This document shows, in pieces, positions 38,135 to 41,725 of a stretch of DNA of 64,000 nt. Each line of letters starts with the position of its first letter. Within the stretch, counting starts at the first letter, position 1. A program made the translations under genes and the position numbers. Source of the DNA: Synechococcus sp. MIT S9220 (GTDB lineage Bacteria > Cyanobacteriota > Cyanobacteriia > PCC-6307 > Cyanobiaceae); NCBI RefSeq assembly GCF_014304815.1, contig NZ_CP047958.1:1798001-1862000 (forward strand), read 5' to 3'. The notes beneath the pieces are model-generated. The model ran no database searches and was not told the origin of the DNA. It saw nothing but the letters and a program-made list of their open reading frames with translations.

Positions 38135-38379
38135 TTAGCGGTTGAGTCCCTGTCATGGACAGGGCTGAAACTCAAAACAGCAAGACAGCCCGTTCATCGA
38201 GAACCATTGAACGAAGCAGCCGCAGAACAAGACCTCTCAATCAAACACTCACGCTCATCTGAGCTGAACAGACTTCGGTGCACTGTTATCCGCCCGAGGT
38301 TTCGCAGAACACAGTATAAATACTCATGGGCATTCATAATTGCTGGGATTCACCGGTTTAACGCACTGACGATCTGACA

Positions 38380-38466
38380 ATGATTGCGTTTCTAGCCTTG
38401 TTCTGGGTGTTTGTGCTCGCGGTTTATTTCCGCTTCCGGGATGATGAGATGAACCCAGACAGCTGA
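38380..38466 (+). CDS. Tiny membrane peptide (28 aa)
   Basis: IAFLALFWVFVLAVYFRFRD, a single helix with a charged end. Its stop overlaps an even shorter hydrophobic frame (38466-38528, 20 residues) by ATGA. Both are below normal gene-calling limits. Confidence 0.3.
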   Translation: MIAFLALFWVFVLAVYFRFRDDEMNPDS

Positions 38467-38659
38467 TGCTGATCGCCGTAGCCCTGCTGCTGCTTCTCTC
38501 TTTCTGCTTGTCAGACGGTGAGAGATAACCAACGGGTGCACCCCTTGATCGCATGCCAAGGGGATGCATCACTGTGTCTGAGCGAACAAAGCTGAAAACA
38601 ACGAGAACTGCATGCATCAAACGCGATGATCAGAATGAAAAATAGAGATTGATCAATTC

Positions 38660-38876
38660 ATGGCGAAGGGCTACTGGCTGGCAACAGGTACCCTCAACGA
38701 TCGCAGAGGCTTCATGATTTATGCAGCCGCCGCCGAACCCTTTCTCCAGAAATGTGGGGCAAAAAATGTTTATCCGAGATGCGCATACTGACGGAAGAGA
38801 AGGGAACCCTGGCCATTTCACTGTTCTGATTGAATGTCCGAGCGTTGAAGCAGCGAAAGCGCGTATGCAGAGCTGA
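38660..38876 (+). pseudogene. DUF1330 protein, frameshifted in an A6 run
   Basis: The first frame begins MAKGYWLATGTLNDRRGFMI and continues to residue 43 before a stop. After the A6 run at 38761-38766 another frame continues the family pattern (FIRDAHTDGREGNPGHFTVL, then IECPSVEAAKARM). Removing one A gives one open frame of about 71 residues with the expected DUF1330 layout. It is a one-base insertion, a sequencing error or slippage, in a dimeric ferredoxin-like small protein of unknown function. Confidence 0.8.
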
Positions 38877-39217
38877 ATATCAGGATAATTCGACTAAGAG
38901 CTAACAACAGCGAAGCCTGTTTCAGCATTCTTGAGGAAGGAGACAAGCTCGCCCACTGAGTTTGACGAAGAATCAGCGCCGTGAACGCAAGAAGTCAACT
39001 ACGAATCCAAGAAGGTCATTTCACCATGCGTGAAGATACAAGTGATGCAGACTGATCAAGAACTTCATGCCATTTTGAAGACCTGATCGTGGTCTCGACA
39101 GGATGCGATTGGTCGTCTACAAAACAGCCGACACTGTGTTCCTCTGCAGTGTCGGACTAGACGGCAGGATTGTATTGAGACACTGAGAAGGGACTCATTC
39201 GAGCCTCCTAACAACCT
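38877..39217. other. Gap holding structured repeat copy A
   Basis: No ORF seen. The middle contains a hairpin element (39096-39164) described separately. The rest is featureless to my reading. Confidence 0.5.
39096..39164 (+). repeat. Structured hairpin element, copy A
   Basis: CGACAGG, then CGATTGGTCGTCTA (39106-39119), then a perfect 9-bp stem CCGACACTG / CAGTGTCGG (39128-39136 with 39147-39155), then TAGACGG (39158-39164), which pairs with TCGTCTA to make an outer stem. The block recurs at 40916-40985 with a different inner stem that still pairs. Confidence 0.65.
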
Positions 39218-39415
39218 TTAGCTCTGATGAATCTTAGTCTTCATCCATTCAATAATATCTTGTTCTAACCACACCACTGTCCGTGAACCAATTTGTATCT
39301 GCTTTGGAAAGCTACCTTTTTCCATGTGAGTATAAATAAACGTTTTGCCAACACCGGTCATCTCAATCACCTGTGAAAGCCTAAGGAACCGAGGTGCACC
39401 AGTTTCATTGACCAA
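39218..39415 (-). CDS. AlpA-family HTH regulator
   Basis: A 65-residue phage-type regulator: FLRLSQVIEMTGVGKTFIYT, then FPKQIQIGSRTVVWLEQDII. This is the AlpA/excisionase MerR-like fold, which binds DNA and usually activates an integrase. No integrase is nearby, so it may be left over from a lost element, or act from a distance. Confidence 0.85.
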   Translation of the reverse strand: MVNETGAPRFLRLSQVIEMTGVGKTFIYTHMEKGSFPKQIQIGSRTVVWLEQDIIEWMKTKIHQS

Positions 39416-39456
39416 AACGAAGGATATTCGATACGGACATGGGATAACTCAAGAGC

Positions 39457-39702
39457 TCAGGAGTTGATGACATCATGGCTTGGATGAGGATGACCGCCAC
39501 GTGCGACTGCCCTGCCTTGTCCTTGATGAGAATGAGCAATACCAAGCTTATGCAGCCTTGAATGCTCTTCAATCTGATCTGTCAACTGCGCAGAGCCAGC
39601 ACCAAATGCGGTGTAAATCCCATACAAGAGCGTTCCTAAGACCAAAACAGCCAAAGAGCCAATCATTAAATATGCAGAAAGATCTTGATTTGCAAGCTCC
39701 AT
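39457..39702 (-). CDS. PsbN-like small membrane protein with C-terminal extension
   Basis: 81 residues from the ATG at 39702. A helix (about 10-30, LMIGSLAVLVLGTLLYGIYT) runs into AFGAGSAQLTDQIEEHSR. This matches the PsbN end, in which AFGPPS, a leucine and an acidic DDHED-type tail follow the single helix. An extra His-rich tail of about 28 residues follows. PsbN is needed for photosystem II assembly and repair; this copy lies in the island rather than opposite psbH, so it is probably an accessory or diverged version. Resemblance by eye. Confidence 0.55.
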   Translation of the reverse strand: MELANQDLSAYLMIGSLAVLVLGTLLYGIYTAFGAGSAQLTDQIEEHSRLHKLGIAHSHQGQGRAVARGGHPHPSHDVINS

Positions 39703-39847
39703 GAATCCCTTTTGATGCTGACTGAATCTTGGCTGCGCAAAAAACTTGTGCTGTAACGATTGCTTCGCCAAACATTTACAATTAGCATCAATACAGCCCT
39801 TAAAGATTAACACTCACTCGTTAATTCCTTATACCCATATTGAGCGA

Positions 39848-40018
39848 ATGCAACCAAGAGCAAGACAACACGATGCAGATCTACGTGAGCAAATGCGCGG
39901 CAAAAACATGCAAAAGTATGACTTCGACACTGCCGCTCGGCATTTTTCTCAAAAAAATAATCAACAGTCTCCCGGCGGGCTTTGGCGGCGAACTTCTACG
40001 AACATCGACGAACACTAA
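39848..40018 (+). CDS. Small hypothetical protein (56 aa)
   Basis: QPRARQHDADLREQMRGKNM followed by YDFDTAARHFSQKNNQQSPG. Other frames across this stretch are also open, so the choice is uncertain. Confidence 0.3.
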   Translation: MQPRARQHDADLREQMRGKNMQKYDFDTAARHFSQKNNQQSPGGLWRRTSTNIDEH

Positions 40019-40065
40019 AATCGTTATGACGAGCGAAAGGGCCTTCGTGGCAAAGGAGCCGGTCA

Positions 40066-40206
40066 GTGAGTAGTCAATCTCTTGACTTTTGGCCACCGCA
40101 GATCAAGCCATGCAGCGCCGAGATCATGGCCATGAGCTGGCGCGACAACGAAAGCTCAATAGAGCATTGGCATCACCCATGGCTCAGCGAAGGAACCAAC
40201 ACCTGA
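40066..40206 (+). CDS. Small hypothetical protein (46 aa) with strong RBS
   Basis: GTG start 7 bp after AAGGAG (40053-40058), giving SSQSLDFWPPQIKPCSAEIM then a Trp/His-rich end (IEHWHHPWLSEG). The ribosome site and residue pattern support translation. Unknown function. Confidence 0.5.
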   Translation: MSSQSLDFWPPQIKPCSAEIMAMSWRDNESSIEHWHHPWLSEGTNT

Positions 40207-40346
40207 TGATTTGATCTCTGAATGATCAAACAAGGCTCAACAACAGCGCACTCGCGCCGTGACTGGCTGTACGATGAAGATGCTTAACCGCGTTTTAACC
40301 TTCAAAGCACGATCGAGCGACAGGCCACTGAAAGCAGGAGAAATAG

Positions 40347-40493
40347 ATGAACCCAGACAAACAGCATCGCAAACTTGTGAAGCTCAAGCTGAAAGCAGAA
40401 GAGTGCTTAACGAGGGAGCAAGCTCAAAAAATCATTCGCAAAGCGGATAAAGCTCATAGAAAGCTCTCTGAGGGCCAGAACAAGGCTGCATAA
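40347..40493 (+). CDS. Small basic helical protein (48 aa)
   Basis: ATG preceded by AGGAG at 7 bp. Very basic (DKQHRKLVKLKLKAEECLTR, KIIRKADKAHRKLS), two helices, likely nucleic-acid or ribosome associated. Unknown. Confidence 0.5.
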   Translation: MNPDKQHRKLVKLKLKAEECLTREQAQKIIRKADKAHRKLSEGQNKAA

Positions 40494-40601
40494 CGGTATC
40501 AAGGGCAACATCTTTCTGAGACCTTCGAACCGGTAAAGATGCGGGTCGACAGATGGGTTGATTGTGGTGACGATCGGTTGAGCTGCCACCGTCTCTGGTC
40601 C

Positions 40602-40802
40602 ATGGACGAAACCACACTGGCAATGGAGGAGCATTGGCCCGTTGAGGAGCAGCTCAAACGAGTCAATCAAGCCTGTGATCAGATTGAACAGATCCTTGAT
40701 GACCTTGTTCAGGACACGGCATGTTCCAATCATGCGATTCGCGATCTGCTGAGCACACTGTCAGAAGACTGGTCTGACAGCCAGCAACTGGAAGCCTGTT
40801 GA
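40602..40802 (+). CDS. Small acidic coiled-coil protein (66 aa)
   Basis: From the ATG at 40602: EEHWPVEEQLKRVNQACDQI followed by a heptad-like helix. Unknown. Confidence 0.45.
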   Translation: MDETTLAMEEHWPVEEQLKRVNQACDQIEQILDDLVQDTACSNHAIRDLLSTLSEDWSDSQQLEAC

Positions 40803-40915
40803 TCGAGGCCAGTGCCGCACAAATGCAAGGCCTGGTGGCTCAATTCATTGCTTTGCATGCAGCATGCGATGCCGGGAGTTGAGACCAACAGATGCCAGGT
40901 TGTCAATCCAATCGT

Positions 40916-40985
40916 CGACAGGTTCGATTGGTCGTCTAACTGCGACTCCGATGCTTCCACTCAATGGCAGCATCGGACTAGGCGA
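40916..40985 (+). repeat. Structured hairpin element, copy B
   Basis: CGACAGG (40916-40922) and CGATTGGTCGTCTA (40925-40938) are identical to copy A. The inner stem TCCGATGCT / AGCATCGGA (40947-40955 with 40969-40977) has different bases but pairs perfectly, and TAGGCGA (40979-40985) pairs with TCGTCTA using one G-U. Confidence 0.65.
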
Positions 40986-41153
40986 AACCATGCGCACGCT
41001 GGGTTCCTAGCGGAGGCTGGCTTGAAGACCAGTCATGACACGACATCGGCAAGGCAGCAGAGAAGTAATACCTAATCCTTGTAAGTGCGTGTGTTTACTC
41101 TTTCCTTGGTCGTCGAACCAGGGTTAGACCAGAGGAAGAACAAACGTACTTCC

Positions 41154-41477
41154 ATGCCAACTTATCCTCCCTTGGGGCCACCCACCTCAAACCTCATTGA
41201 TGCAGCTTCGTCTTTTTTGTCGGTCCGACCTGGTCAGTTTGTCATCGTCAGAGAGCTAACTCATGCCAGTGAAAGAGTTGATATCGAAAAGAACTGGTGG
41301 CTTGGACAGGTGATTTTTTGCGAGGGATGGGAGAAACATTCAAGACTTCACTCGCTTTTTCAGGTCGCGGACGTTGATGACGGAGCCATTCGCTGGGTTC
41401 ATCCGACCCAGGTGACCCACGTTCTGCACGGACTCGACGGAATTGGGCAGGAAGGCTGGGATGGGTTCGAGGATTAA
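41154..41477 (+). CDS. DUF3104 protein
   Basis: 107 residues from the ATG at 41154. Core FLSVRPGQFVIVRE, NWWLGQVIFCEGWEK, and LFQVADVDDGAIRWVHPTQV match the DUF3104 pattern more fully than the copy at 33059. Probably a small beta-barrel protein; function unknown. Confidence 0.8.
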   Translation: MPTYPPLGPPTSNLIDAASSFLSVRPGQFVIVRELTHASERVDIEKNWWLGQVIFCEGWEKHSRLHSLFQVADVDDGAIRWVHPTQVTHVLHGLDGIGQEGWDGFED

Positions 41478-41503
41478 TTGATTCTCCGCAGCAGCTGCCA
41501 GAG

Positions 41504-41530
41504 AAAAAAAGGAGGCCTTCGCGGCCTCCG
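41504..41530 (-). terminator. Minus-strand intrinsic terminator
   Basis: GGAGGCC TTCGC GGCCTCC hairpin (41511-41529) preceded by AAAAAAA on the plus strand. Read on the minus strand it is a stem followed by T7, so it should stop transcripts coming from the right. On the plus strand there is no T run after the stem. Confidence 0.7.
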
Positions 41531-41725
41531 TCTACCTATCACCAAAGGAGAAGTGCTCGACGCCTCTCCTGCCTTCAGTATGTGTATCGCAAAGAACATG
41601 TGCCTGAGATCACATACTCATTGCCGAAGGGCGACGTGGTCTGGTAATGGGTTGGCGAAACCAGAAAGCTGTTAGCTCAACCTTTGAAGTCCTGCAACAG
41701 GGCCACAATCGACAGCCAAAGCATC

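Follow-up and report, generated by a model that had tools for sequence, protein, structure and literature searches.

A clade-limited family of structured elements, probably RNAs, at three fixed loci in marine Synechococcus

Yfr1 and Yfr2/Cyano-1 are small multi-copy structured RNAs of picocyanobacteria. The element described here, first seen as two copies (A and B) in Synechococcus sp. MIT S9220, comes from the same group of organisms; it has no Rfam match, and the Yfr1/Yfr2 signature motifs were not seen in it. By habit, the nearest described RNA appears to be Yfr103, which is reported from numerous marine Synechococcus and Prochlorococcus strains, with seven paralogues in CC9605 (PMC5069720). 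Like Yfr103, the element is intergenic, structured and present at several paralogous loci per genome, and the block at its third locus (C) has a similar length; unlike Yfr103, it was found in seven genomes of one clade and at three loci, and A and B are single modules of ~155 nt, a comparison of distribution and architecture. Two DNA-level systems also share traits with it: as in REP/BIME repeats, a hairpin with a variable stem is framed by conserved flanks, and as in integron attC sites, the outer part is conserved, the inner hairpin is variable and GYCTAAC stands at the start of copy B.

The window analysed here (64,000 nt, positions 1,798,001 to 1,862,000 of contig NZ_CP047958.1) is part of the chromosome of a complete genome of 2,424,175 bases. 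The first-pass annotation had recorded two look-alike elements in it, and its description was confirmed as written: CGACAGG is located at 39096 and 40916, the 14-mer CGATTGGTCGTCTA is common to both copies (39106–39119 in A, 40925–40938 in B), the inner stems pair perfectly in each, and the outer TCGTCTA pairs with TAGACGG in copy A (with one U-G) or with TAGGCGA in copy B. This earlier reading stopped short of the full element: an alignment of copies from several genomes showed that homology begins ~90 nt farther upstream of the 14-mer and that each copy is a ~155-nt module with four helices, comprising the outer and inner stems already seen (P3 and P4) and two additional ones (P1 and P2). 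The likeness of A and B across ~155 nt exceeded that of 500 out of 500 dinucleotide shuffles, and the + strand of the two copies gave folding z-scores of −2.2 and −3.5, compared with weaker values of −0.6 and −2.4 for the − strand. Covariance model R2, representing all classes A, B and C, matched copy A with 118.6 bits (E 6e-30) and copy B with 123.2 bits (E 4e-31); both copies were among those used to build R2. The parts of the two modules are as follows (window coordinates):

39009–39166, + strand: copy A, whole module P1–P4
39018–39047, + strand: copy A, P1, CA(TT)TCAC (39018–39024) with GTGATG (39042–39047)
39083–39112, + strand: copy A, P2, CTGATC (39083–39088) with GATTGG (39107–39112), CGACAGG in the loop
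39113–39164, + strand: copy A, P3, outer stem, TCGTCTA (39113–39119) with TAGACGG (39158–39164)
39128–39155, + strand: copy A, P4, inner hairpin, CCGACACTG (39128–39136) with CAGTGTCGG (39147–39155)
40833–40987, + strand: copy B, whole module P1–P4
40908–40931, + strand: copy B, P2, CCAATC (40908–40913) with GATTGG (40926–40931)
40932–40985, + strand: copy B, P3, TCGTCTA (40932–40938) with TAGGCGA (40979–40985)
40947–40977, + strand: copy B, P4, TCCGATGCT (40947–40955) with AGCATCGGA (40969–40977)

Across the family, P1 (consensus CAWTTCAY...RTGATG) was the weakest helix, with 82.8% of cells paired, and is followed by a linker holding the invariant motifs TGCCA and TTG. P2, formed by CCAATC or CTGATC with GATTGG, was paired in 99.1% of cells and is maintained via G-U changes. 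P3 (TCGYCTA with TAGNCGR) surrounds the variable hairpin P4, four of whose nine pairs change on both sides. The core GATTGGTCGYCTA was identical in all 17 intact copies, the first of which were collected by that same pattern; the decayed copy included in the model (copy B of genome G016) deviates from it.

The exact 14-mer has two sites in the 2.42-Mb genome, both on the + strand, and a reversed control pattern had none. The genome-wide search proposed in the first-pass annotation, run with one mismatch allowed, gave a further site at 1,487,359 at which the fold is also present; this third copy, locus C, lies 350 kb from the A/B pair on the same chromosome. The other sites with one or two mismatches lacked the fold and were not assigned to the family, leaving 1,487,359 as the sole real member among them. 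The annotation had named the lack of further copies as one of two things that together would speak against it; besides the third copy in the same genome, orthologues were found in related genomes. Covariance model R1, built from ten A and C copies and no B copies, recovered B copies outside its training set (E 1e-12 to 1e-16), and the covariance-model check that had been suggested located the family in seven of the 31 genomes of the genus, with the positions of the three loci unchanged from genome to genome. A, B and C were all present in G000 (this genome), G008, G013, G017 and G028, while in G016 and G025 C was present, B was damaged and A was cleanly absent. A and B are spaced 1.8–2.2 kb apart in carriers, with C elsewhere. 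In an rpoB tree the seven carriers formed one clade (100/100), within which G008 and G028 branch first and G016 and G025 are sister to G000, G013 and G017.

Weak matches in G002, G006, G009, G010, G011, G018, G021, G026, G029 and G169 had low scores and were attributed to chance, and those inspected had neither core nor fold. R2 gave no convincing match over 201 genomes sampled across the taxonomic family, a search whose stricter filters may miss divergent copies; the one weak match among them (E 0.004) lacked the core. No match was found in phage and plasmid DNA, nor any model match in viral contigs. The 14-mer was present in 179 viral stretches, none of which fitted the model (160 were scanned with it), and pattern matches in Brevundimonas and Actinomyces were without P3/P4. 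A scan of the window against Rfam 15 at the gathering threshold returned two tRNAs only and no family over the element, and permissive Rfam scans of the element and the three loci returned nothing sensible. Judged from these searches, the element appears to represent copies of a structured family that matches no catalogued RNA family and is limited to a small branch of marine Synechococcus. Descent as a divergent branch of Yfr103, an abundant 290–328-nt multi-copy ncRNA of marine picocyanobacteria, would suit the locus-C block of similar length (~300–325 nt) and the multi-locus, intergenic and strongly structured character of the element, but is very improbable given its confinement to one clade and to three loci at most and the lack of a convincing model match in other genera. 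The distribution of Yfr103 was not reproduced, provided that the genomes searched include CC9605 and similar strains.

In an alignment fitted to the structure (A5), 91.7% of the pair cells were standard, compared to 22–42% when the partner was slid; seven pairs had changes at both positions, with a covariation score that none of 500 shuffles equalled. As the structure had guided A5, RNAalifold was also run on an unfitted alignment; it returned P2 and P3 and these alone, P4 being missed where class B was misaligned. Most changes separate the three paralogous classes, so that independent covariation events are few. With the decayed copy left out, P2–P4 contained 27 G-U versus 2 A-C cells. Since neither folded DNA nor an RNA from the opposite strand is expected to give a G-U bias, this excess points to an RNA read from the + strand and not to a DNA hairpin. 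Pairing is conserved through sequence change and is strand-specific, as is characteristic of structured ncRNAs, and we regard the element as a real feature and probably an RNA-level fold. Of the interpretations offered in the first-pass annotation, a selected RNA structure gained support from the three fixed loci in seven genomes, the maintained pairing and the G-U pairs on one strand, with a small RNA family a probable extension of it; a REP-like repeat or recombination site is not supported, as there are only three loci, these do not move between genomes, and neither a Y1/RAYT transposase nor an integron integrase was found.

A DNA-level element would act as folded single-stranded DNA (attC, REP or IS200/605 ends) or as a recombination site, with A and B forming the ends of a ~2-kb cassette. 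The direct repeats, 1.82 kb apart, do flank a cassette that includes an AlpA-like gene, A is either wholly present or cleanly absent, and the GYCTAAC with which copy B opens resembles an attC R'' box. This explanation is nevertheless improbable: the A–B cassette has a fixed place in all carriers and was found elsewhere in no genome, the intervening genes remain when A is lost, and G-U pairs are tolerated while A-C mismatches are not. Variation of the genes between the copies, which the annotation had suggested as a check, was not observed, the cassette having the same site and the same genes in all carriers. Unlike REP/BIME repeats with RAYT, which are many and dispersed, the element has three fixed loci and four helices over 155 nt, and no match to the Y1 (RAYT) transposase PF01797 was present in the genome (the control matched in five genomes). 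Unlike attC sites (RYYYAAC...GTTRRRY plus integrase), A and C are without R'/R'' boxes (AAC/GTT), GTCTAAC is found only in copy B, where its partner is ACTAGGC, there is no cassette array, and the genome has no match to the integron integrase TIGR02249.

A sits between a DUF1330-like gene and a convergent AlpA-like gene, and B between an ORF of 66 aa and a DUF3104 gene. C in G000 is placed between a divergent hli-type gene (upstream) and two small ORFs, ~110 nt upstream of an ORF of 63 aa. Two of these neighbours have the following positions:

39218–39415, − strand: AlpA-like regulator, convergent with copy A (Pfam Phage_AlpA, E 1.3e-17)
40602–40802, + strand: 66-aa coding ORF, ending 31 nt upstream of copy B

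Each of the seven carriers has an orthologue of the 66-aa ORF and no other genome of the genus has one; the ORF shows mostly third-position changes and in-frame indels. Its confinement to carriers and its distance from B, which may therefore belong to a longer mRNA, would fit a cis-acting element within a longer transcript. In that case A and B would be structures in the 3' UTRs of the short upstream genes (DUF1330 and the 66-aa ORF), or B and C would lie in leaders of downstream genes, controlling the stability or processing of those mRNAs. The same interpretation draws on the position of A closely 3' of the DUF1330-like gene and of C 5' of the 63-aa ORF, and on the lack of a visible promoter or terminator of the copies' own: no sigma-70-type promoter was found in 38200–41600, a TANNNT −10 box is missing from the ~60 nt that precede A and B and from within ~70 nt of where the C block starts, and none of the three copies is followed by a U-run terminator. 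It is possible though rather unlikely, as the arrangement differs among the loci (a convergent gene downstream of A, a divergent hli gene upstream of C in G000), A is intact in G000 although the DUF1330 gene upstream of it is frameshifted, and in G016 and G025 the decaying B lies next to a 66-aa ORF that is still intact. A is not a leader, given that the gene downstream of it is convergent, and stand-alone RNAs are favoured because A, B and C share no cis arrangement.

Our preferred explanation, held with moderate confidence, is that A and B are paralogues within a small family of ~150-nt structured RNAs encoded on the + strand, and that these would be transcribed to function in trans as small non-coding RNAs. 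The family is best read as new, clade-limited structured RNAs, probably small regulatory RNAs. Each RNA would fold as P1, a linker with TGCCA-TTG, P2 (CCAATC/GATTGG) and then P3 enclosing P4; the invariant GATTGGTCGYCTA core and the P2 loop may serve protein recognition or pairing with a target RNA, and P4 could be a hairpin that stabilises the RNA while its sequence varies freely. A and B would act as a pair; C would be a member apart and may itself consist of two modules in tandem. If transcribed, these elements would constitute an RNA family not described before, in a group of ecological importance for whose clade-specific adaptations there is little explanation.

At the A site of G016 and G025 the flanks align and A alone is missing; parsimony places A in the ancestor of the carriers and its loss in the lineage of these two genomes. 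B has orthologues in G008, G013, G017 and G028; in G016 and G025 it has decayed to 24.7 bits (R1) and 27.1 bits (R2), respectively, with pairs lost in P2, P3 and P4, more severely in G025. C is intact in both genomes despite the loss of A and the decay of B. This pattern suggests paired action of A and B, although a single lineage event is no proof of dependence. The stronger proposal, that A and B are an obligate functional pair in a new RNA family, such that B loses its structure once A is lost while the third locus is kept, is doubtful; if true, it would imply that a single Synechococcus clade has its own pair of RNAs acting together, or its own two-part ribonucleoprotein. G016 and G025, in which A was lost naturally and B has decayed, offer a ready-made comparison.

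Locus C comprises a ~300-nt block with 77–100% identity across six genomes, including four 30-nt windows with 97–100%, and identity falls at sharp edges to ~35–40% on both sides. By this measure of sequence conservation, locus C is under strong selection; it is more constrained than the adjoining protein genes (an 88-aa ORF nearby has mostly 72–92% identity), which implies a function. Its core has almost no third-position changes and is not simply coding, since third positions are conserved too. A short protein-coding sequence in the element, with GAT TGG TCG giving DWS in one frame of every copy and open reading frames spanning the core in A and B, is scarcely credible: a stop or a shift breaks the frame within the element in C, and the near lack of third-position changes there is unlike the genuine 66-aa ORF beside B. 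Long-range pairing in locus C was not counted as evidence because it rests on invariant bases. The upstream half of locus C in G000 (L046, 1345–1500) weakly resembles a second tandem module, with CCAAT...ATTGGTCG and a hairpin; this putative module had an E-value of 0.048 in an unfiltered search of 211 bases, 12 of 500 shuffles being as good, so that a tandem double module is only suggested.

Several neighbouring genes had features of their own. The DUF1330-like gene (38660–38970, + strand) is apparently frameshifted here and matches Pfam DUF1330 (E 3e-10) when read across the shift. Between A and B, adjoining the alpA-like gene, lies a gene for a PsbN-like protein of 81 aa (39457–39702, − strand; Pfam PF02468, E 1.7e-7) with a C-terminal extension past the match. 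Also between the copies is a 48-aa ORF (MNPDKQHRKLVKLK..., 40347–40493, + strand), which has no Pfam family above the cut-off and is conserved in the six relatives aligned. The DUF3104 protein (41154–41477, + strand) belongs to a highly multiplied family, of which this genome has seven matches and its relatives as many as 17; several matches contain internal stops.
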